Shown: positions 8,450-53,916 of the stretch, piece by piece | Layout: every line of letters starts with the position of its first letter | How positions within the stretch are numbered: the stretch's first letter is position 1 | Assembly: GCF_000143985.1 (NCBI RefSeq) | Contig: NC_014364.1 | Span: 3,844,001 to 3,908,000 of the forward strand | Reading direction: 5' to 3' | DNA from: Sediminispirochaeta smaragdinae DSM 11293 | GTDB taxonomy: Bacteria; Spirochaetota; Spirochaetia; DSM-16054; Sediminispirochaetaceae | DNA length: 64,000 bases | Made by a program: the position numbers and the translations under genes | Notes under the pieces: generated by a model | Told to the model about the DNA's origin: nothing | Seen by the model: the letters and a program-made list of their open reading frames with translations, nothing else | Database searches by the model: none

Positions 8450-9450
8450 ACGGCCCCCTCCTCAAGTGCGGACTCTTCAAGTACAAGCTGGGCCCGTCTG
8501 CTTTTCAGCTGAGCCTCGAAGGCTTTTCTGAACCTGAAATCGAGTAAAACGACCGAGAGCAGAATGGCCCCGGCAATCGCGTCGTTCCAGAATGCAGGAA
8601 CCTTCAGGAAAACAAGGATGGAATCGATCGTGGTAAGAAACAGGCCTCCGACCAGGGCTCCCATGGGGCCGCCTACCCCGCCGGAAAGGCTTACCCCACC
8701 GAGAACGCAGGCGGCGACGGCCCTCATCTCCTGGCCGGAACCCGTCTGCATCGGGATAAAACCGATCTGCGACACAAAAACCAGACCGGCAAGGCCGGCA
8801 AAAAGACCAGCAAAGACATGGGCCCAAAAGACTCCCGCCTTTACATGAATTCCCATGAAAAAGGCACCTTCCCGGTTGTCTCCGACATAGTGGAAGATAC
8901 GTCCGGCCCTTGTTTTCTGGATGATAAGAGCACTGATGATCCCGAGAAGGAGAACAATCCAGGCAAGAGCACTGATGCCAAAAAGGTCGATACCGGCAAT
9001 ACGCTTATAAGATGTGACAACGTGGTCGATCCAGCTACCGCCGGTGAGGATGTACATGGTGCCTCGGAATACCCCCATGGTACCGAGGGTCATGATAATG
9101 GGAGGAACGCCGATGAGCCCGACCCCTATGCCATTGACAGCTCCCGCTGCAAATCCCGCCAAGAGTCCCAGGATCATGCTCACGGGAATGGAGATTCCCG
9201 CGTTCAGGGAAAGCCCCACAGCAACGGCGCTCAGACCGGTGATGGCACCGACCGAAACATCGATACCGCCGGTAAGCAGGACAAACATCTCACCTAAGGC
9301 GATCAAAACGATAATAAGTGAGGAATCTATGATTCCCGATAGCGTCGAGACCCTAATAAAAAGGGGGTTGATGATCCCAACGACGATAATGAGCACAATC
9401 TGAATCAGAAAGACCAGAAATGCCCGTTTTCTTATTAGTACGCTAAACAT
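8446..9450 (-). CDS. lsrC: AI-2 ABC transporter permease LsrC
   Basis: 334-residue permease. The chosen start, MFSVLIRKRAF, overlaps the lsrA stop by 8 nt and is the last Met before the first membrane helix. An upstream in-frame extension of 23 codons lies wholly inside lsrA and looks non-native. LsrC-type features are LLTGGIDVSVGAITG, IIMTLGTMGVFRGTMYILTGGSWI and the AACVLGGVSLSGG loop. It pairs with LsrD. Confidence 0.9.
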   Translation of the reverse strand: MFSVLIRKRAFLVFLIQIVLIIVVGIINPLFIRVSTLSGIIDSSLIIVLIALGEMFVLLTGGIDVSVGAITGLSAVAVGLSLNAGISIPVSMILGLLAGFAAGAVNGIGVGLIGVPPIIMTLGTMGVFRGTMYILTGGSWIDHVVTSYKRIAGIDLFGISALAWIVLLLGIISALIIQKTRAGRIFHYVGDNREGAFFMGIHVKAGVFWAHVFAGLFAGLAGLVFVSQIGFIPMQTGSGQEMRAVAACVLGGVSLSGGVGGPMGALVGGLFLTTIDSILVFLKVPAFWNDAIAGAILLSVVLLDFRFRKAFEAQLKSRRAQLVLEESALEEGAV

Positions 9451-10951
9451 GGCTACCCTGCACTCCAAAGGCTCCCGCCGTAACGGTTTCGATGTCGCAT
9501 TCGCTTCGTGCATACTCACCGGTGATCTGACCGTGGTACATAATGTAAATGCGGTCGCTCAGTTCTAGAATCTCTTCGAGATCGGAAGAGATAAGTAAGA
9601 CGCCGACCCCCTGAGCCGTCAGCGACCTGATGATGTTGTACACGTCAAGACGGGCTTCGGCATCGACACCCCTTGTCGGTTCGTCAAGGATGATCACGCT
9701 GGGATCACAGGCAATCACCCGTGAAAGTACCACCTTTTGCTGATTCCCGCCCGAAAGGGTCGATGCGACCTGATCGGGGCCAGCCACCTTTATTCTGAAC
9801 TGCTCGATGAAGCGTTTGGCAATGCCGTACTCTTTCCCCGACGACATGAATACCTTTCCGAAACGGTGGAGGATGCTGGAAGTCGTGGTAAAGTAATTGG
9901 GCTGTCCGAGAAAAATTCCGTGAGCCGCACGATCTTCCGGCACATAGACGAGCCCGGATTCCTGACAGCGGCCGGGGGTCCGGCCGTCGATTTCCTTGCC
10001 GGAAACAAAAACCTTGCCTGCACTTCCTCCGGTGATTCCCATGACAGCCTCTGCAAGTTCCGTCCGTCCCGCACCCACGACACCGGCAAGACCCACAATC
10101 TCCCCGCTTTTGACATTGAGCGAAACATCTTTGAAATCCTCGGAGCTGAAGCCCTGTAGTTCAAAAACGGTCTCATCACCGATGGATTGCCGCCTCTCTT
10201 CGCAAGGGTCCTCCCTGCCCGCCTTTCCTTCAGGTAACATGGCTTTGACCAACTTGATGTGATCAAGTTTAGAAGTCGCTTCACAAAGCACCATGTTCCC
10301 ATCCCGAAGAACACTCACCCGGTCCGAAATCTCAAGTATTTCATTAAGCCTGTGAGAGATGAAGAAGATGCCTATCCCCTGGGATTTGAGAACCCTCAAC
10401 CGCTCGAAAAGGGAGTTCACCTCTTTGAAGGTGAGGGTCGAGGTCGGCTCGTCCAGGATAAGCACTCTGGCCTTGCGGATAAGACCGCGAATGATTTCGA
10501 GCAGCTGCTGTTGTGCTATGCTCAAAGCCCCCGCAAGCTCTGAGAGATCCTCGCAAAAGCCAAGGGCTTCTCCTATTCGGACAATCTCCCTGGTCATATC
10601 GCCGACCTTACACCCCGTCCCCAAGATGACATTCTCTTCGATACTGAGGTGGGGAAAGATCTGAGGCTCCTGTGGAACCAGATAGATGTGCCCCATATGG
10701 GCCTGCGAGGGGTTTTGGAAGACCACCTCTTCTCCGTCCACAAGGATCGTCCCGGCATCACGACCATAGATCCCGGAAACGATCTTCATGAGGGTCGACT
10801 TTCCCGAGCCGTTTCCCCCGAGTAAAGCGTGGATCTCCCCCTCCCGAAGGGTCATATTGACCCCTTTGAGAACAGAAACACCGCTGAAGGATTTCCAGAT
10901 ATTTGAGAGCACCAAGATTTCCTCTTTTTGCTTCTCTTCCGCAGTTTCCAT
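9443..10951 (-). CDS. lsrA: AI-2 ABC transporter ATPase LsrA
   Basis: 502-residue double ATPase of the RbsA/LsrA type. The first nucleotide-binding domain has Walker A GGNGSGKST (45-53), a LSIAQQQLLEI signature in place of LSGGQ, and Walker B VLILDEPTSTL. The second has a degenerate P-loop VVGAGRTELAE, a LSGGNQQKVVLS signature and VIILDEPTRGVD. This asymmetric pair is normal for the family. It is the second gene of the operon, 17 nt after lsrF. Confidence 0.92.
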   Translation of the reverse strand: METAEEKQKEEILVLSNIWKSFSGVSVLKGVNMTLREGEIHALLGGNGSGKSTLMKIVSGIYGRDAGTILVDGEEVVFQNPSQAHMGHIYLVPQEPQIFPHLSIEENVILGTGCKVGDMTREIVRIGEALGFCEDLSELAGALSIAQQQLLEIIRGLIRKARVLILDEPTSTLTFKEVNSLFERLRVLKSQGIGIFFISHRLNEILEISDRVSVLRDGNMVLCEATSKLDHIKLVKAMLPEGKAGREDPCEERRQSIGDETVFELQGFSSEDFKDVSLNVKSGEIVGLAGVVGAGRTELAEAVMGITGGSAGKVFVSGKEIDGRTPGRCQESGLVYVPEDRAAHGIFLGQPNYFTTTSSILHRFGKVFMSSGKEYGIAKRFIEQFRIKVAGPDQVASTLSGGNQQKVVLSRVIACDPSVIILDEPTRGVDAEARLDVYNIIRSLTAQGVGVLLISSDLEEILELSDRIYIMYHGQITGEYARSECDIETVTAGAFGVQGSHV

Positions 10952-40249: not shown

Positions 40250-40355
40250 TCCTTCTGTATATATTGTTTTTTTTGTTCATTTTGGTCGCAGCGGATTTCA
40301 TTCACAGATAGAAATTGAGAATGCCGGTTAGGGATGATGATAATGGAAGGAGACT

Positions 40356-40630
40356 TCAAATCGCTCCCACGCAAATCTGCAGAGCAACGGTAATTTCTTC
40401 CAGTTCCTGAGCGGAAATTCTTCCCGCCGGATTGTGAAAGCGTTCCAGGGATAAGAAGCATAGCGGTCTTTCCATTCCGTAACAGGTACGACTATGCGCA
40501 ATGGCAGTTTCCCGACAGCGTCGGGAGAAACGACAACGGCCAGCCTTTGCTTACTGATCTCTGCCCCGATGGTAGGATCAAAATTAATCCACCACAGTTC
40601 GCCGCGTTGGGGATTAGTCATCCATGACAT
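40356..40630 (-). pseudogene. MazF/PemK-family toxin gene, internally deleted and frameshifted
   Basis: The first part reads as a normal PemK/MazF toxin: PQRGELWWINFDPTIGAE, RLAVVVSPDA, LRIVVPVTEWKDRYASYPW. The following conserved S-D-Q-RS(V/L)S catalytic block is missing. The proper C-terminus is present in another frame starting at about 40450: LERFHNPAGRISAQELEEI and on to a stop at 40356. So about 30 codons were lost with a frame change, and the product now ends in an unrelated tail (to 40328). It overlaps the upstream XRE-ImmA gene by 17 nt, showing they formed one unit. Confidence 0.8.
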
Positions 40631-41798
40631 CCATTATGTCGTCTGCTAAAAGCTCACTGTCCGGAGCATACATATCCGCACTCTCTTCTGCCAGTTTTGA
40701 AAGATAGGCCGAACGTTCTTCAGCACTCAGAGAGAGGTAGGTAGTAACAGCGGACGAGCTGTTGTCCTCCAGTTGCTCTTTCACCATCAGGTAATCCGGG
40801 AAGAGCTCCTGGGCCCGGGATTCGCTTATCAATCCTTCCGCTACAGCGCGGAACAGGTACTGCTGGGTTAAACGCGGTTCCTCCGGATAGGGCCAGAGCC
40901 CCGGTTCCTCGGAATAAATACCCTTACTCCTGAAATTAATAAACATACTCTGATAGGCCGACCGGCTTAAAATGCCGAGATCCTTCGCCCTGTAGGTAAG
41001 TGCCTGAATACTGATGCCGAAGCGTTCTTTTATAAGGCACAGTTCCTGGATGGAGATGCTGGTACGGCTTGTCCCCAGAATTTGCCGTAAGCGTTCTGCC
41101 GGAACCAGGAAAGCCCCGGAAAAACGATGGGCTAGATGTTCGTTTATCTTGGGCTCGGTGCTGGAAAGAAGCAAATGACCGAGTTCGTGGCAGATAGTCA
41201 GCCTTGTTCGGTCAACGCTTTTATCTTTCGCGTAAACGATGATTTTCCGATTATTCGACAGATTTCCTACAAATCCATCCACCCCGTTTCCCGCCGTTGG
41301 GATGGGGACAAGAATAATCCCCTTGCTTTCCAGAAGCTCGCAGAGATTCTGAATAGGAGTATCATCCAAATTCCAGAAGGAACGAAGCTCCTCAGCCATG
41401 TTTTCGGCCTCTTCAGGTGTCGCCTCTTCACGTGACCGAGGAAGAACAGAAGGTTCTGAAATCACTCCGCATACATTCTCAATCATTAAAATGTTTTCAA
41501 CTTTTTCTTCGGCGATTGCCTTGAGACTATCGATTTTCACCTGACTGACAGAGGCTTTCTTTCTGAATGACTGCCATGTAACGGTGGCTGAGGGATTTGA
41601 AAAGAAATAATCCGTTTTAACGTCAAAAACCTGGGCAAGAGCATAAAGCGTCAAAGCATTGGGCGTCGCCTTTTCCAGTTCATATTTTGAAAGAGCCGCA
41701 CGGGTGATCCTGGTTCCCTGCTGTTCAAGTTTATCCGCTAATTTCTGGAGAGACCATCCGCTCATTATTCTTTTTTGCCGTAATTTCTCCCCGATCAT
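40614..41798 (-). CDS. XRE-type helix-turn-helix plus ImmA/IrrE metallopeptidase regulator
   Basis: 394 residues. N-terminal Cro/CI helix-turn-helix (about 5-60; LQKLADKLEQQGTRITRAALSKYELEKATP). Central zinc peptidase domain with HELGH (204-208) and E220 as likely third ligand. A C-terminal part of about 130 residues is less conserved. The start at 41798 has AGAGGAAAG upstream; the frame extends further upstream but has no role. Proteins of this kind cleave or regulate repressors in phages, ICEs and toxin-antitoxin loci. Here it may have been the antitoxin or regulator for the downstream toxin. Confidence 0.85.
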   Translation of the reverse strand: MIGEKLRQKRIMSGWSLQKLADKLEQQGTRITRAALSKYELEKATPNALTLYALAQVFDVKTDYFFSNPSATVTWQSFRKKASVSQVKIDSLKAIAEEKVENILMIENVCGVISEPSVLPRSREEATPEEAENMAEELRSFWNLDDTPIQNLCELLESKGIILVPIPTAGNGVDGFVGNLSNNRKIIVYAKDKSVDRTRLTICHELGHLLLSSTEPKINEHLAHRFSGAFLVPAERLRQILGTSRTSISIQELCLIKERFGISIQALTYRAKDLGILSRSAYQSMFINFRSKGIYSEEPGLWPYPEEPRLTQQYLFRAVAEGLISESRAQELFPDYLMVKEQLEDNSSSAVTTYLSLSAEERSAYLSKLAEESADMYAPDSELLADDIMDVMDD

Positions 41799-41811
41799 TG
41801 TACTTTCCTCT

Positions 41812-41847
41812 GTTGACAGTATCGATATATATTCTATTTTTGTCAAC
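41812..41847 (-). promoter_or_regulatory. Promoter of the XRE-ImmA gene with inverted repeat
   Basis: Minus strand -35 TTGACA (41846-41841), 17-bp spacer, GATACT (41823-41818). GTTGACA (41812-41818) and its complement TGTCAAC (41841-41847) bracket the promoter and could bind the gene's own XRE domain. Confidence 0.5.
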
Positions 41848-41933
41848 GGAAAGAGGCATGATTTAATATCATTTACAAATTTGTTAAAACAAAAAAAAAA
41901 CGAACAAAAAAGTCTATTAATCGTAAGAGAGAA

Positions 41934-41962
41934 TTGAACCATCATCTACTTCACCATATAAT
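41934..41962 (+). promoter_or_regulatory. Promoter of the FecBCD/MoeA-like operon
   Basis: TTGAAC (41934-41939), a 17-bp spacer and consensus TATAAT (41957-41962). The leader of about 55 nt holds an imperfect inverted repeat (ATACTTTTCC/GGAAGTAT, about 41978-42001) that could be an operator or hairpin. Confidence 0.6.
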
Positions 41963-42022: not shown

Positions 42023-43156
42023 ATGAAAAGAAACCACCACAAAAGCCGGGTTCTATGGGGATCGCTGGTCCTCACCCTCCTGCTCACCCTCGGTGCCTGT
42101 AACAAGGGTGCCGATAGTGCCGCGCAGGGATCAAAACCCACAACGGAAGCGACCGTAGCGGCCACGCCGGAAACCCGCAGCGTAACGAACTGCGACGGAA
42201 CGGTCATCACCGTTCCCTACAAGGTCGAAAGGATCGGATGTCTTTTCGGACCATCGTATGAAAAGGTGGTCATGCTCGGGGCCGAGGATAAGATCGTCTT
42301 CGACGGGGATTACCACATCTACAGCTGGCCCTGGTCAAACGTAATTTACAAGCATGTCGACGAGGTTCCCGGCATCAAGAATGCCCACAGCTCCCCCAAC
42401 ATCGAGGACCTTGTAGGCTACAAGCCCGATATCGTCTTCAACTTTCCCAATCCCAACACCACGAAGGCGATGAATGAGGCGGGCATGGCCGTTGTTCCCC
42501 TGGCATCGAAACCAGCGTATGATTCCATTGTCGATGAGATAGGGGTATATGCCGAGGCGATCGGAGGCGACGCCCCGAAGGTTGCCGAACGCTATGCCGC
42601 CTATTTTCACGCTGTAGTGGAACGCATTAGCGCGGTCGTCGATACCATCCCCGAGGTTGAACGGCCCAATGTTTACTTCGCCAATCAGGAAATCCTGATG
42701 ACCCACGGGTCGGCCTCAAGTATTTTGGATCTCATCAAGGTCAGCGGGGGTGTTCCCGTTACCACCACGCTTGAAGGGGGCGGGAAAACAAAGGTGACCG
42801 CCGAGCAGCTTCTGGAATGGAACCCCGATTACATCTTTGTCGACCATGCCGGTTCATCGGGAAACGCCACGGCCGAAGAGGTGATACACGAGATGCTTTC
42901 CGACGATCTCTACGCCGAGATGAGTGCGGTTGCGCAGGACCATATCTTTATCGTACCAACCGGCGTCTTTTTTTGGGATTCCGGTGTCCAGAAGCCCCTG
43001 CTCATGCTGTATCTGGCAAGCACCCTTTATCCTGATCGTTTTCCCGATGTCGACATGACGGCGGAACTTAAAAAGTTCTACTCGGAATTCTTCTATTATG
43101 ACCTGAGCGACGAACAGGCCCGACGGATTCTGGCCCATCTCGATCCGGAAACGTGA
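42023..43156 (+). CDS. FecB-type metal/oxyanion binding lipoprotein
   Basis: 377 residues. Lipobox LTLGAC gives the lipidated Cys at about 26. The mature part is a class III periplasmic binding protein (PF01497-like) with VPYKVERIGCLFGPSYEKVVMLGAEDKI and NIEDLVGYKPDIVF. Relatives bind siderophores, cobalamin, haem or, in Haemophilus MolA, molybdate and tungstate. The MoeA-like gene next door favours the last. A strong promoter lies at 41934-41962. Confidence 0.85.
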   Translation: MKRNHHKSRVLWGSLVLTLLLTLGACNKGADSAAQGSKPTTEATVAATPETRSVTNCDGTVITVPYKVERIGCLFGPSYEKVVMLGAEDKIVFDGDYHIYSWPWSNVIYKHVDEVPGIKNAHSSPNIEDLVGYKPDIVFNFPNPNTTKAMNEAGMAVVPLASKPAYDSIVDEIGVYAEAIGGDAPKVAERYAAYFHAVVERISAVVDTIPEVERPNVYFANQEILMTHGSASSILDLIKVSGGVPVTTTLEGGGKTKVTAEQLLEWNPDYIFVDHAGSSGNATAEEVIHEMLSDDLYAEMSAVAQDHIFIVPTGVFFWDSGVQKPLLMLYLASTLYPDRFPDVDMTAELKKFYSEFFYYDLSDEQARRILAHLDPET

Positions 43157-43169
43157 TAAGGACGGGGAA

Positions 43170-44378
43170 ATGAGCATGACAGGATCCGCCCGTATGAACA
43201 TGCCCAGGCTCGAAGCGCTGGAGGAGATCGGCAAGCATATAAAGTATCGGCCGATCGAGGAAATCGTGCCCCTTCCCGATGCGGTTAAGCGGGTGGCGGC
43301 CAGGGACATCGTTTCCCGCCTGAATGTACCGGATGTGAAGTGCAGCCGCTGGGACGGTATCTGCTTTTCCTGGCAGCACTATCTCGACTCGGGCCGTGAC
43401 GTAAGTTCGTGGCAGGCCGAGGTGGATTACATCTTTTCAAACACCGGCATCCCGGTTTTTCAGCAGGCCTTTGACACCATGGTGATGATCGAGAAAACGA
43501 CCTTTCACGAGAATCAGCTTATCTCCATAGATCAGAAGGATGTGGTCCAGGGACAGCAGATGATTCCGGTGGGAGAGCGCATGGCGATCGGTGAAATCAT
43601 CGTAGCGAAAGGGACGCTCATCACCCCGTCCCATCTCAACCTGTTGGCAACGGGCGGCGTGATACAGGTTCCGGTCCTTAAGAAACCGATTGTAGCCCTC
43701 TTGCCTTCGGGAAACGAGCTGGTATCCTGCTACAACACCCCGGCCCCCGGTCAGACCATCGAATCAAATACCTTTTCCATGGCCGCCAAGGTCCGGCAAT
43801 GGGGTGGCAAGGAGCTACTTTTTCCCATTGCCAGGGATGAGCATGCCGTACTGAGAAGCCGCCTGAAAGAGGCGGCGGCAAAGGCCGATATCGTGGTAAT
43901 CTGCGGGGGCTCGGGACGGGGACGATTCGACCTCCTCCAGGAGGCGGCATCGGATGTCGGCGAGCTTTATTTTTCCTCCGTGGAACACGGACCGGGCAAA
44001 AGGACCTGCTTCTCGCTTATCGACGGAACACCGGTCTTCGGCCTGGTGGGGCCGCCGGGAGGGGAAGAGATGACCTTCGATTTCTACGTCCGACCCGCAC
44101 TCTTGGCCTGCCTGGGACAGCCCTACCGTGTCACCGAGGTCCAGGCCGTCCTGGATGAGGACATAGCTCCCCACCACCGGACCGATTTTATCTACACCAT
44201 CGGCCTTTACCGGGTGCCGGGAGAAAAGCTGCTCCATGCGCGCCCCCTGCCCCACAGTCGTCTCGACCGCTCCATTGCCGAGCACAACGGCTATCTTTTC
44301 GTGCATCAAAAGGGGCCTGGCCATAAGAAAGGCGAAACCGTTATGGTTGAACTTCGTACCGGTCATGAAAACATCTGA
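43170..44378 (+). CDS. MoeA-like molybdopterin-pathway protein with altered motifs
   Basis: 402 residues with the MoeA layout: N-terminal EALEEIGKHI and LPDAVKRVAARDI, central MoCF-type domain with VALLPSGNELV and IESNTFSMAA, and C-terminal barrel. MoeA inserts molybdate into adenylylated molybdopterin. Several catalytic motifs differ: SRWDGIC for S(A/x)MDGYA, GGSGRGRFDLL for GGxSxGDYD, and GLVGPPGGEE for GLPGNPVS. It lies between binding protein and permease genes and overlaps the permease by 14 nt. It may be a sensor or metal-handling partner rather than a standard MoeA. Confidence 0.78.
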   Translation: MSMTGSARMNMPRLEALEEIGKHIKYRPIEEIVPLPDAVKRVAARDIVSRLNVPDVKCSRWDGICFSWQHYLDSGRDVSSWQAEVDYIFSNTGIPVFQQAFDTMVMIEKTTFHENQLISIDQKDVVQGQQMIPVGERMAIGEIIVAKGTLITPSHLNLLATGGVIQVPVLKKPIVALLPSGNELVSCYNTPAPGQTIESNTFSMAAKVRQWGGKELLFPIARDEHAVLRSRLKEAAAKADIVVICGGSGRGRFDLLQEAASDVGELYFSSVEHGPGKRTCFSLIDGTPVFGLVGPPGGEEMTFDFYVRPALLACLGQPYRVTEVQAVLDEDIAPHHRTDFIYTIGLYRVPGEKLLHARPLPHSRLDRSIAEHNGYLFVHQKGPGHKKGETVMVELRTGHENI

Positions 44379-45393
44379 AGAACAAGGCCGCGTTCTGCCG
44401 ATTGTGCTGCTCGGCTGTCTCCTGATCGCGGCGTTCTTCCTTTCCTGCTTTCTTGGACGATATTCCCTGACGCCCCGGGACCTCTTTTTTTTATTTCGCG
44501 AAGGGCTAACAGGGCTGCCCTCCGGGCTCTCAGCCAGCGCATCGAAGGTCTTTTTTCGCATCCGACTGCCTCGAATCCTGGCGGCTGCAATCACCGGCTG
44601 CGGCCTTGCCCTGTCGGGATCGGTCTATCAGGGGGCCTTTCGCAACCCCCTGGTTTCTCCCGATATTCTGGGAGCCACTGCCGGAGCGGGACTTGGGGCG
44701 GCTGTTGCCCTACTCCTCAACCTCAACGGCAGCCTCGTTCAGCTGGTCGCCTTTCTCTTTGGTCTGGCGGCAGTAGGAGGGACTACCATACTCGCCCGTT
44801 CCTTCGGCGACCGAAACAGTCTGACCCTCTCCCTTGTCCTCACCGGTATTGTCGTCTCCGCCCTCTTTCAGGCCGGCATCTCCCTGGTAAAATATGTGGG
44901 TGACCCCTATACGAAGCTCCCTGCCATCACCTTCTGGCTCATGGGCTCCCTTTCGGCGGCCGTCCCCTCATCGCTTCCCCTTCTATCGGCTCCCCTGCTG
45001 GCAGGCGGCCTTCCCCTCCTGCTGCTGCGCTGGAAACTAAATCTGCTCTCCCTGCCGGATGAGGAGGCGATGTCTCTGGGAATCAATACCACACGATTGC
45101 GTTTTATCGTGATCCTCTGTGCAACCCTCATCACCTCATCGGTAGTCGCCGTAGGAGGCATCATCGGATGGGTGGGCCTGATCATCCCCCATCTGGCACG
45201 AATGCTGGTGGGCTCCGACTGTCGCTTCCAACTTCCCGCTGCCATGGTCCTCGGGGCAAGCTACCTTTTGCTGGTGGATGATATTGCCCGAAGCGCAACG
45301 GCCATGGATATTCCTCTCGGCATCCTCACCGCCGTGATAGGCGCCCCCTTTTTCCTGTTGCTTATGTACAAACAGCGGAGAAGCCAGTCATGA
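44365..45393 (+). CDS. FecCD-type ABC permease
   Basis: 342 residues, about nine to ten membrane helices. FecCD/BtuC signatures are RIRLPRILAAAITGCGLALSG, QGAFRNPLVSPDILGATAGAGLG, VGGIIGWVGLIIPHLARMLVGSD and LPLGILTAVIGAPFF-like SMDIPLGILTAVIGAPFFLLL. The start at 44365 lies inside the end of the MoeA-like gene; an earlier frame start lies deep in that gene. It makes the homodimeric channel of the importer. Confidence 0.9.
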   Translation: MKTSEEQGRVLPIVLLGCLLIAAFFLSCFLGRYSLTPRDLFFLFREGLTGLPSGLSASASKVFFRIRLPRILAAAITGCGLALSGSVYQGAFRNPLVSPDILGATAGAGLGAAVALLLNLNGSLVQLVAFLFGLAAVGGTTILARSFGDRNSLTLSLVLTGIVVSALFQAGISLVKYVGDPYTKLPAITFWLMGSLSAAVPSSLPLLSAPLLAGGLPLLLLRWKLNLLSLPDEEAMSLGINTTRLRFIVILCATLITSSVVAVGGIIGWVGLIIPHLARMLVGSDCRFQLPAAMVLGASYLLLVDDIARSATAMDIPLGILTAVIGAPFFLLLMYKQRRSQS

Positions 45394-46172
45394 ACATCGA
45401 AGTGAAGGAGCTCTCCTGCGGATACGGCGCAAAGGTGCTGCTGGAGGGGCTCAATCTGACCCTTTCCCGGGGTGAGATCCTCTGCATCCTGGGACCCAAC
45501 GGCGTGGGTAAAACAACCTTTTTCAAAACGATCCAGGGCTTTCTGAAACCGCTTGCCGGAGAGGTATATATCAACAACACCCTTCTCTCCCGTCTCAGCC
45601 GCAGGGAACTTGCACAGCTCATAGCCTATGTCCCCCAGGTCCACGGCCACCCCTTTTCCTACAGCGCACGTGATATGGTGCTCATGGGACGCACCCCGTA
45701 CCTAAACACGCTTTCGGCACCGGGAAAGGGGGATTCTGCCGTATGTCGAGAGGTGATGGAGCAGCTGGGGATCGCGCATCTGGCAGACCGATGCTATTCG
45801 CAGCTATCAGGAGGGGAACAGCAGATGGTGCTCATCGCCAGGGCAATGGCACAGAAGCCCACCTTTCTCATGATGGACGAACCGACCTCCAATCTTGATT
45901 ACGCTCATCAAATGTACCTGCTCCGGCAGATGATCAAACTGCGTGACACGGGACTGGGCATCATGATGATAACCCATTCCCCGGATCAGGCCTTTTTCTG
46001 CGCAGACAACGTGGCGCTCTTCTATCGGGATCGTCGGGTGCAGGCCGGAGCAACGGCCACCGTTCTCACCGAAACCTCCCTGAAGGATGCCTACGGCATC
46101 ACCGTCGACCTATTCAGAAACCGAAACAGCGCCGGAGAAGTGGTTACCACCTGTTCTCCGGTTATGGGATAG
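45390..46172 (+). CDS. FecE-type ABC transporter ATPase
   Basis: 260 residues. Walker A GPNGVGKTT, signature LSGGEQQMVLIARAM, Walker B FLMMDEPTSNLD, H-loop MITHSP. The start overlaps the permease stop by 4 nt. It powers the importer. The last 17 codons (RNRNSAGEVVTTCSPV and onward) contain a 45-bp sequence repeated perfectly 8 kb away, so the 3' end of this gene is one boundary of a probable island. Confidence 0.92.
   Translation: MNIEVKELSCGYGAKVLLEGLNLTLSRGEILCILGPNGVGKTTFFKTIQGFLKPLAGEVYINNTLLSRLSRRELAQLIAYVPQVHGHPFSYSARDMVLMGRTPYLNTLSAPGKGDSAVCREVMEQLGIAHLADRCYSQLSGGEQQMVLIARAMAQKPTFLMMDEPTSNLDYAHQMYLLRQMIKLRDTGLGIMMITHSPDQAFFCADNVALFYRDRRVQAGATATVLTETSLKDAYGITVDLFRNRNSAGEVVTTCSPVMG
46118..46162 (+). 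repeat. 45-bp direct repeat, left copy (attL-like)
   Basis: Runs AAACCGAAACAGCG through to TTCTCCGGT and is identical base for base to 54077-54121 in the same orientation. It lies in the last codons of the FecE-type ATPase gene. It contains the inverted repeat CCGGAGAA...TTCTCCGG with GTGGTTACCAC in the middle, a shape typical of recombinase sites but also of terminators. Confidence 0.85.
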
Positions 46173-51888: not shown

Positions 51889-53916
51889 TCAATTCATGAC
51901 AGTCTGTTTTACCAAACGCTCAAGATCGCTCGGAATGGCCTCGTGCAAGATATCTTTCCAGGCTTTTATAAGCTGTTTGGGTTTTACAACATACGGCTGA
52001 ACGCCGACAAATTTGAAAGTCTCGTTACTAACTAATGCTTTTGCAACGGCCTTGGCCGTAGCCTCACCTTGCTCATAAGGGCGCTGGGTACTCAACCCCA
52101 TCACCATCTTTTTTTGGGCCATATATGAGGCTATTTTATAATCAAGATCAAATGTAAAGATCGCTATATCCGTCCGCCCCATCTCCTCCAGAGCTTTGAT
52201 TGCATACAATGCCGGCTGATCCCAGGAGATGTACAGCCCCTCAATATCCGGATGCTGTTTGATCATCTGTTTGCATGTATCATAGGCATGCTCGATCCTT
52301 CCAAAGGATTGAATGGCAACAATATCAATATGAGCGTACATTTCCCGGACCACCTTCTCCGCAGAAGCATCCCGAAGATGCGTGCCATAAAAGGGAGTAC
52401 CATGAATAATAAACCCGACTTTTGCACTCGATCGTGCTTTAAAGTAGTCTCCAAGCAAAATTCCCGTGTTATTACCGTTTTCCCTCTCGTTCACCGAGAC
52501 ACAAGTGACGTAGGATTCTTTCGATAATCCTTCCGGCACATTGCTGATAAAGACCAGCTTGATCGTCTTGGAAAGCTCCTTGAATTTTTGTGCAGTGACA
52601 TGATCATCGGTAGGGATGGCAATCAGCACATCGGGACGCTGGATCCGTATTGCTTCAAGCTGGGCCAGCTGCAACGACGGATCAAACTGCGCATCCATGA
52701 CAGATACCACAGAAATCCCAAAAGATTCCAATGTTGCCCGAATAGCCTGTTCGTGCAGGCGGGTCCACGCGGTACCCCCATAATGAAAGGAAATCGCCAC
52801 ACGATAATTCTTGTCACGGAGCATACGTCGTTCGTCCGTCGTCAATATAATCTCGTCGGGAGAAACAGCCTTTTCACCAAAAGGCCCCATTCCCAGCATC
52901 CTTGTCGACTTTCGATTAATCAACTCGACACCCACTTGCAAGTCACGGCTTTCAAGCTGCTCTCCCGCCATCAAACGAAGTAGAGCGTCCCAGGCCCTTT
53001 GGGCCATCTGTTCGGTATCCTCTTTTAAAATTGTCAGGGGAGGAGCCGTGATTTCATAGAAGGGATTATCCCCATATGCAATTATGGAGATATCCCGAGG
53101 ACATTCCTTGCCCATATTCTGCAGCGTTTTCAACAGATCACAGGTCAGCTCATTCCCAACTACAACACATGCGGAAGGTTGTTGTCTTTCATAGGCGAGC
53201 TTAATCTCATGCTCATATGCCTCTCCGTTCATATGGGGCTCAAATTCAAAAACAAGCGAGCCTCTGTAATAGAGTGAACTTTCCTCCAGTGCTTGTTGAT
53301 ATCCCTCAAGCTGATCTTTACCAGTCGCCCCAATCCCCTGTATCTTGAGCAAGGCAATGCGCTCATGTCGATTCTTGATCAGTTGTTTGGTACCAAGATA
53401 TATCGCCTTCTTTATGGCAAATGTCACAGAGCAAATTTCATCTGAGTTGATTCTCCGCTCGATACAAACAAAAGGAATCCTTGAACGTAGCAATTTGCCA
53501 TAAGATCTCGGATTATCGGTGGCAGGAACCAAAAGTATCGCCGCATACGTCTTTTTGGAAATAAGCGATTGTAGTATTTGCCTCTCTACCTGCTTATCGT
53601 CATTCGTGATATGCACGGAAAGCCGAAGAGTAGAATCTTCGGCCAAGGCATGAATATGGGAGGCGATACGAACATAGGTTTGTTCTTCGAGATTCGGCAC
53701 CAGCAGGGCAACAGCACCACTGCGGCCGTACGAAAGGGACCCGTCGGCGCTGATTCTCTTATTCTGGTACCCTGTTGCAACAATAGCCTCCTGAACTCTC
53801 TGTACAAGCTCTGGCTTAACATAGCGTGTACAGTTGATAACATGAGAAACCGTTGCAATCGAAACACCGGCAGTATCCGCAACATCCTTTATAGTGACCT
53901 TTTGCCTTTTTGCCAT
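51889..53916 (-). CDS. LacI-type regulator with two periplasmic-binding-protein-like sensor domains
   Basis: 675 residues, twice the usual LacI length. Residues 8-50 are a LacI helix-turn-helix and hinge (TIKDVADTAGVSIATVSHVIN). Residues about 66-335 are a normal LacI effector domain (GDNPFYEITAPPLTILKED). Residues about 371-655 are a second, RbsB-like domain (VAISFHYGGTAWTRLHEQAI, LYISWDQPALYAIKALEEMG, FTFDLDYKIASYMAQKK). No stop or start lies at the junction, so it is one protein. It is convergent with the island sugar operon and likely controls it. A near-match operator overlaps its own promoter region. Confidence 0.88.
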   Translation of the reverse strand: MAKRQKVTIKDVADTAGVSIATVSHVINCTRYVKPELVQRVQEAIVATGYQNKRISADGSLSYGRSGAVALLVPNLEEQTYVRIASHIHALAEDSTLRLSVHITNDDKQVERQILQSLISKKTYAAILLVPATDNPRSYGKLLRSRIPFVCIERRINSDEICSVTFAIKKAIYLGTKQLIKNRHERIALLKIQGIGATGKDQLEGYQQALEESSLYYRGSLVFEFEPHMNGEAYEHEIKLAYERQQPSACVVVGNELTCDLLKTLQNMGKECPRDISIIAYGDNPFYEITAPPLTILKEDTEQMAQRAWDALLRLMAGEQLESRDLQVGVELINRKSTRMLGMGPFGEKAVSPDEIILTTDERRMLRDKNYRVAISFHYGGTAWTRLHEQAIRATLESFGISVVSVMDAQFDPSLQLAQLEAIRIQRPDVLIAIPTDDHVTAQKFKELSKTIKLVFISNVPEGLSKESYVTCVSVNERENGNNTGILLGDYFKARSSAKVGFIIHGTPFYGTHLRDASAEKVVREMYAHIDIVAIQSFGRIEHAYDTCKQMIKQHPDIEGLYISWDQPALYAIKALEEMGRTDIAIFTFDLDYKIASYMAQKKMVMGLSTQRPYEQGEATAKAVAKALVSNETFKFVGVQPYVVKPKQLIKAWKDILHEAIPSDLERLVKQTVMN

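Follow-up and report, generated by a model that had tools for sequence, protein, structure and literature searches.

The window analysed here, a stretch of 64,000 nucleotides from Sediminispirochaeta smaragdinae DSM 11293, contains an importer operon of the FecBCD type that includes an additional MoeA paralogue, and the residues of this paralogue and its relatives indicate that the hydrolytic half of the active site was kept and the metal (oxyanion) half rebuilt clade-wide. The reading that we favour, with a probability of about 0.4, is that the importer operates together with its own cytoplasmic enzyme of MoeA fold, Mg2+-dependent and of the pterin-adenylate type, which would load or process the imported metal species. 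The importer would bring in a metal, most likely molybdenum or tungsten, as an oxyanion or as a chelate. The MoeA-like partner would bind a pterin in adenylated form, or a comparable chelator, and by hydrolysis that depends on Mg2+ would load, exchange or process the imported species. This would serve a dedicated cofactor route, distinct from that of the housekeeping MoeA, which ModABC supplies. Insertion of molybdenum into its cofactor is the usual task of canonical MoeA. How molybdenum or tungsten reaches the insertase after import has not been settled; the usual assumption is that the oxyanion diffuses freely. With an insertase-fold protein encoded inside an importer operon, direct hand-over or a new metal-cofactor route can be tested in a concrete case.

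The operon consists of four genes arranged head to tail on the + strand. These encode a FecB-type substrate-binding lipoprotein (SBP; 42023..43156; lipobox LTLGAC; Peripla_BP_2, E 2.4e-21), a MoeA-like protein of 402 aa (43170..44378; MoeA_N, 1e-20; MoCF_biosynth, 2.6e-16), a FecCD-type permease (44365..45393; E 1.3e-79) and, by domain matches, a FecE/BtuD-type ATP-binding protein (45390..46172). The most likely permease start is the ATG at 44365 (MKTSEEQG...), which results in a 14-nt overlap with the MoeA-like gene; domains and coordinates thus bear out the earlier note, which had placed the MoeA-like gene between the SBP and permease genes and overlapping the latter. Because the SBP and MoeA-like genes are separated by only 13 nt, and the permease and ATPase genes overlap by 4 nt in addition to the 14-nt overlap, the arrangement fits one translationally coupled operon. 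The presence of a Peripla_BP_2 SBP, a FecCD permease and an ABC ATPase in one operon identifies the importer as FecBCD/BtuCDF-type (type II). No Moco/Wco riboswitch or other Rfam family reached gathering score anywhere in the window. Upstream of the operon and divergent from it, an HTH-IrrE (Peptidase_M78) gene overlaps a gene of the PemK/MazF-like toxin family (40328-41945, - strand). A sugar-type ABC operon begins about 430 bases downstream. A gene for a 675-aa LacI-type regulator that carries two binding-protein sensor domains in succession, Peripla_BP_3 followed by Peripla_BP_4, lies next to a sugar ABC operon (51889-53916, - strand).

MolABC (HI1470-1472) is a molybdate/tungstate importer. 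The window importer resembles it in having a Peripla_BP_2 SBP, a FecCD permease and a BtuD-type ATPase, and MolA is among the solved relatives of the window SBP. However, MolA ranks only fourth (E 1.8e-12), and other FecB-type SBPs (4ovk, 4hn9 and 4pag) score higher. To our knowledge, MolABC carries no MoeA-like gene. With this ranking, and with a ModABC also present in the genome, the MolABC-like specificity suggested in the earlier note is a candidate reading. Elsewhere in the genome, at C1:3731000-3740000 (L134:1856-7031), genes for a radical SAM protein, a FecB-type SBP, DUF364, and ModB-like and ModC-like proteins stand in a row without ModA, an array that by analogy may lend indirect support to a molybdenum-like substrate for FecB-type SBPs in this organism.

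The MoeA-like protein belongs to the MoeA family at the domain level (MoeA_N, 74.4 bits against a cut-off of 30.8; MoCF_biosynth, 60.1 bits against 26.6) and falls far under every NCBIfam MoeA equivalog cut-off. Its score was 171 bits for PRK10680 (the MoeA equivalog; cut-off 440), 209.6 bits for its best match, PRK14498 (MoeA-PBP; cut-off 534), and 140.5 bits for NF045515 (the Glp divisome protein; cut-off 475). The domain search of the 402 aa gave only MoeA_N and MoCF, with no C-terminal PBP-like domain. An AlphaFold model built from a 12-row clade alignment (pLDDT 86) could be superposed from end to end on Cnx1E, MoeA and gephyrin E, with Z values mostly of 31-34 and about 370-388 residues aligned. 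The Cnx1E structures, the K294A, S328A and R369A variants being among the named matches, gave Z 32.6-34.2 over 378-388 residues, and in the VIA-align match list the MoeA-type folds were followed by MogA/MoaB at Z 15. The model thus shows the complete four-domain MoeA/Cnx1E fold in this additional MoeA paralogue.

All three motifs that the earlier note had described as altered are indeed changed relative to E. coli MoeA: S-A-M-D-G-Y reads S-R-W-D-G-I, S-V-G-E-A-D reads G-R-G-R-F-D, and P-G-N-P reads V-G-P-P. The essential acids of the first two motifs, D59 and D259, are nevertheless intact, and the alignment shows that T100, E188 and D228, the other Mg2+/adenylate residues, are kept as well. 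A loss of the catalytic acids is rejected, as D59, D228, D259 and E188 are all retained. The codons of D62 (E. coli D59) and D223 (E. coli D228) lie at 43353..43355 and 43836..43838, on the + strand like all codons given here. E. coli D228 (Cnx1E D242) is the Mg2+ ligand (PMC9458074), and the Mg2+-dependent hydrolysis of MPT-AMP requires Cnx1E D274, the counterpart by motif of E. coli D259 (PMC9458074; PMC6954367). The Mg2+ loop of the window protein, G249-R-G-R-F-D254 (43914..43931), retains the latter acid as D254 and has a new basic residue, R250, in place of V255.

The oxyanion side of the site is formed by the K-P-G-K/R loop and S303/Ser328 (PMC13197769; Cnx1E K294A, S328A and R369A structures), and E. 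coli K279 corresponds to Cnx1E K294 by motif. In the window protein the KPGKP molybdate loop is rebuilt as V271-EHGPGKRT (43980..44006), in which K279 is replaced by G274, K282 is kept as K277 and P283 is replaced by R278. The segment G291-LVGPPGGEE (44040..44069) stands in place of G-L-P-G-N-P-V-S-A, with P298 replaced by V293, N300 by P295 and S303 by G298. The acid at D142 is lost to R137 (43578..43580), and neither of the canonical molybdate-side residues, D142 and K279, is present. The comparison with the E. coli MoeA active site that the earlier note had called for therefore gives a divided result: the protein is like the MoeA, Cnx1E and gephyrin E-domain Mo-insertases in its full-length fold and catalytic residues, and unlike them in the replacement of D142, K279, S303 and N300, in the new basic residues at 255 and 283, and in being encoded in an importer operon of a genome that has a second, canonical moeA.

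These features were counted in 18 transporter-linked rows, 52 canonical MoeA rows and 26 MoeA-PBP fusion rows; the equivalents of R350 and S371 fall in a poorly aligned C-terminal domain, and nothing is drawn from them. The five residues D59, T100, E188, D228 and D259 are kept in all 18 transporter-linked rows. D142 is found in none of these, compared to 52/52 canonical and 26/26 MoeA-PBP rows, and K or R at 279 likewise in none, compared to 49/52 and 26/26. Proline at 300 occurs in 18/18 transporter-linked rows and in 0/78 canonical or PBP rows, and a basic residue (K/R) at 255 in 18/18, compared to 1/52 canonical and 1/26 MoeA-PBP rows. Position 283 is R or H in 10 of the 11 members of the window's subclade and P in all 78 canonical and PBP rows. 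Since D142, K279 and N300 are replaced and position 255 is basic in every transporter-linked row, the motif changes do not look like the chance drift of one gene, and since the pattern across the three sets of rows is clean, the site reads as remodelled rather than simply dead. Genes of this type may carry the name MoeA in genome annotation, and a signature of D142 lost, a small residue at 279, N300P and V255K/R can be used to separate them from moeA.

The earlier note had suggested that the protein may be a cytoplasmic metal-oxyanion receptor, chaperone or sensor coupled to the transporter; in such a role it would be non-catalytic and would control or drain the transporter. The position of the gene inside the importer operon, its translational coupling and the canonical moeA elsewhere in the genome agree with this, and non-enzymatic repurposed MoeA homologues are known, such as Glp (PMC11733289). 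Glp, a gephyrin-like divisome protein of Actinobacteria, is similar to the window protein in being a MoeA paralogue of changed function alongside canonical MoeA. However, its putative active site is degenerate and poorly conserved (PMC11733289), whereas the five catalytic positions do not vary among the 18 transporter-linked rows, which have no divisome context. This invariance points to selection on catalysis or on binding of the phosphate/Mg2+ part of a ligand. In addition, no member has the molybdate-site lysine (E. coli K279, Cnx1E K294). It is thus not natural to read the protein as a passive receptor that takes up the free oxyanion in the canonical pocket, and a receptor or sensor role is considered unlikely. 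The favoured enzymatic reading draws on the same five positions, whose retained residues are those with which MoeA/Cnx1E bind Mg2+ and the adenylated ligand and cleave the phosphoanhydride.

All 4,653,970 bases of the genome lie on one contig. A canonical moeA was found at about C1:1744220-1745596, adjoining moaA, moaC and MOSC-mogA, and the window protein is therefore rejected as the only moeA of the cell; cinA is also present. The combination of no other moeA with complementation, which the earlier note had named as what would speak against it, does not apply. A modABC set (L133; above the curated cut-off) lies close to the nif cluster, in which there are four tandem nifDKEN-type genes, and the window importer is thus rejected as the only route for molybdate. 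There is one molybdopterin oxidoreductase, and an AOR-type gene (216 bits) is located at C1:1203396. A weaker match to the aldehyde ferredoxin oxidoreductase N-terminal domain (AFOR_N, 98 bits, 574-aa frame) lies at C1:3837968-3838549, about 6 kb before the start of the window. Tup/Wtp importers were judged from matches to ModB, and no TupB was evident among these in this genome.

Such a gene content bears on another explanation, in which the protein is an ordinary Mo-insertase except for its specialisation on tungsten or molybdenum: it would make Moco or Wco from MPT-AMP, and the tungstate or molybdate would come through the importer. The retained catalytic acids, the AOR-type tungstoenzyme gene and the lack of an evident TupB all agree with this, as do three MAGs (G296, G312 and G779) in which moaC is present and the transporter-linked protein is the only MoeA_N-type protein found. 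However, these MAGs are possibly incomplete, and in two of them there is another MoCF protein: a 339-aa MoCF protein without MoeA_N is encoded next to moaC-moaA-mogA-modBC (L136:5686-6705; L137:5775-6794), and all MoeA_N proteins of these genomes belong to the transporter-linked type. D142 and K279, both lost here, are present in nearly every canonical and PBP member, and only 9/16 genomes with a transporter-linked member also have a tungsten AOR, so that a strict link to this enzyme is not supported; 7/16 lack it, and tungsten is therefore not implied. An ordinary insertase is accordingly rated as unlikely.

Two known MoeA paralogues are instructive in this respect. MoeA1-PBP fusions occur in archaea and bacteria and are proposed to be linked to tungsten (PMC11733289); like the window protein, they tie a MoeA paralogue to a binding-protein or transport function. 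They nevertheless form a separate branch, keep D142, K279 and S303, have Y300, and are joined to a fused PBP-like domain, whereas the partner of the window protein is a FecBCD importer. MoeA1 of Methylorubrum extorquens is a tungsten-specific insertase whose oxyanion-side residues also differ from those of canonical MoeA; unlike the window protein, it keeps K-P-G-R, the highlighted changes being the fourth residue of the motif and S303 to A (PMC13197769). This protein shows that a changed pocket can retune metal choice, which supports the favoured reading. Because the window protein departs from canonical MoeA in the residue features tested, we do not class it as moeA, but it probably works in a MoeA-like way.

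A GTDB-wide pattern scan gave two close relatives, L006 and L007, both in Peptococcaceae MAGs. L006 has a gene order identical to that of the window operon, with 54% identity between the MoeA-like proteins and 66% between the SBPs, and in L007 a MoeA-like gene followed by FecCD adjoins a divergent modABC. Among 296 Spirochaetota genomes sampled there was one further clear relative, G212, in which the MoeA-like gene and an SBP-FecCD-ATPase-SBP operon are convergent. The gene order that the earlier note had proposed to look for in other spirochaetes was thus found in a different phylum, but the spirochaete relative is arranged differently. Together with the canonical moeA elsewhere in the genome, the conserved order in L006 upholds the claim that the gene is an extra paralogue coupled to the importer. 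In the plasmid collection, the best relatives among the matches listed had at most 31% identity, and none was shown to be of the transporter-linked type.

The phylum to which the Peptococcaceae MAGs belong yielded further relatives in profile searches, with the orders FecCD-ATPase-SBP-MoeA (L048, L060), SBP-FecCD-ATPase-MoeA (L107), FecCD-ATPase-SBP-DUF364-MoeA (L111) and DUF364-MoeA divergent from ATPase-FecCD-SBP-SBP (L061); a member in L108 adjoins two modABC sets. FecBCD genes lie within 1.5 kb of 9/18 transporter-linked genes, compared to 0/78 canonical or PBP-fused ones (Fisher p 4e-8, indicative only, as the rows are related and were drawn by similarity searches), and in wider flanks beside 12/18, where the controls were not all read to equal distance. 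The clade is therefore recurrently encoded beside FecBCD importers, in several gene orders. A chance neighbourhood, in which a decaying moeA duplicate sits inside an iron-siderophore operon, would agree with motifs that differ from textbook MoeA, but it is contradicted by the same order at 54% identity in a different phylum, by the clade-wide invariant residues and by the repeated association in different gene orders, and is regarded as extremely improbable. Members without FecBCD in view, alone or adjoining a methyltransferase (L043, L055, L057, L058 and L078), count against the favoured reading, as do the 7/16 genomes without a tungsten AOR. In two different genomes, a solitary MoeA-like gene of the clade has as its immediate neighbour the gene of a SAM-dependent methyltransferase some 300 aa long (L049:6419-7357; L065:7902-8810), and a related methyltransferase adjoins the MoeA-like gene in L106.

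FecBCD importers normally carry chelates. This agrees with a further alternative, uptake and processing of a metallophore or chelate, in which the MoeA-like protein, elsewhere with DUF364, radical SAM and methyltransferase proteins, would make, activate or strip the chelator with no pterin metal insertion. DUF364 companions are present in L061, L106 and L111, and nitrogenase-like companions also agree with it. However, the role of DUF364, metal chelation with a pterin-like ligand, is itself only proposed (PMC2954201), and no biosynthetic or modifying gene is present in the window's own operon; chelate processing is thus rated as quite improbable. A more novel reading, possible if doubtful, is that these proteins are transporter-coupled MoeA enzymes of a class not described before, their metal pocket rebuilt, which together with FecBCD (and with DUF364, radical SAM and NifH/D/K-like proteins in some genomes) would provide a dedicated route from an imported metal chelate to a metallocofactor other than ordinary Moco. 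The FecBCD/MoeA pairing in distantly related anaerobes suggests an undescribed hand-over of an imported metal or complex to a cofactor-making protein. No paper describing this pairing was found in the open-access literature searched, which is weak evidence of novelty.

PF00148 nitrogenase-like pairs occur in operons with MoeA-like and FecBCD genes at L067:2863-12763, L112:2278-9733 and L113:5070-10896. In L067, two PF00148 genes are followed by MoeA-FecCD-ATPase-SBP-radical SAM; in L112, NifH and two PF00148 genes stand between MoeA and SBP-ATPase-FecCD; and in L113 an apparent NifH accompanies the pair. No description of such operons was found in the literature searched.

In the tree, a branch with 100/99 support separates the transporter-linked rows and two smaller sister groups, one Cys-rich and one MoaA-linked, from canonical and PBP-fused MoeA; the tree is midpoint-rooted, and the word clade assumes that the root lies outside the transporter-linked side. 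In the single-contig genome G578, the sole MoeA_N protein is a MoaA-linked member adjoining moaA, MOSC and mogA, and for this reason metal insertion has probably been retained at least among the MoaA-linked members. These likely insertases keep R at 279, where the window protein has G, a difference that counts against the favoured reading. The Cys-rich group (L061, L067 and L118) is also FecBCD-linked. Its MoeA-like proteins, encoded at L061:12481-13857, L067:2863-4257 and L118:6001-7314 and 8649-10073, are a second, strongly diverged group in which T100 is replaced by M, and a Cys-rich stretch is present in both N-termini read (L061 and L067). Two other MoeA-like genes contain an in-frame stop, TAG in L106:6274-7518 (G772) and TGA in L113:7925-8965 (G710), which may reflect decay, sequencing error or, for TGA, recoding.
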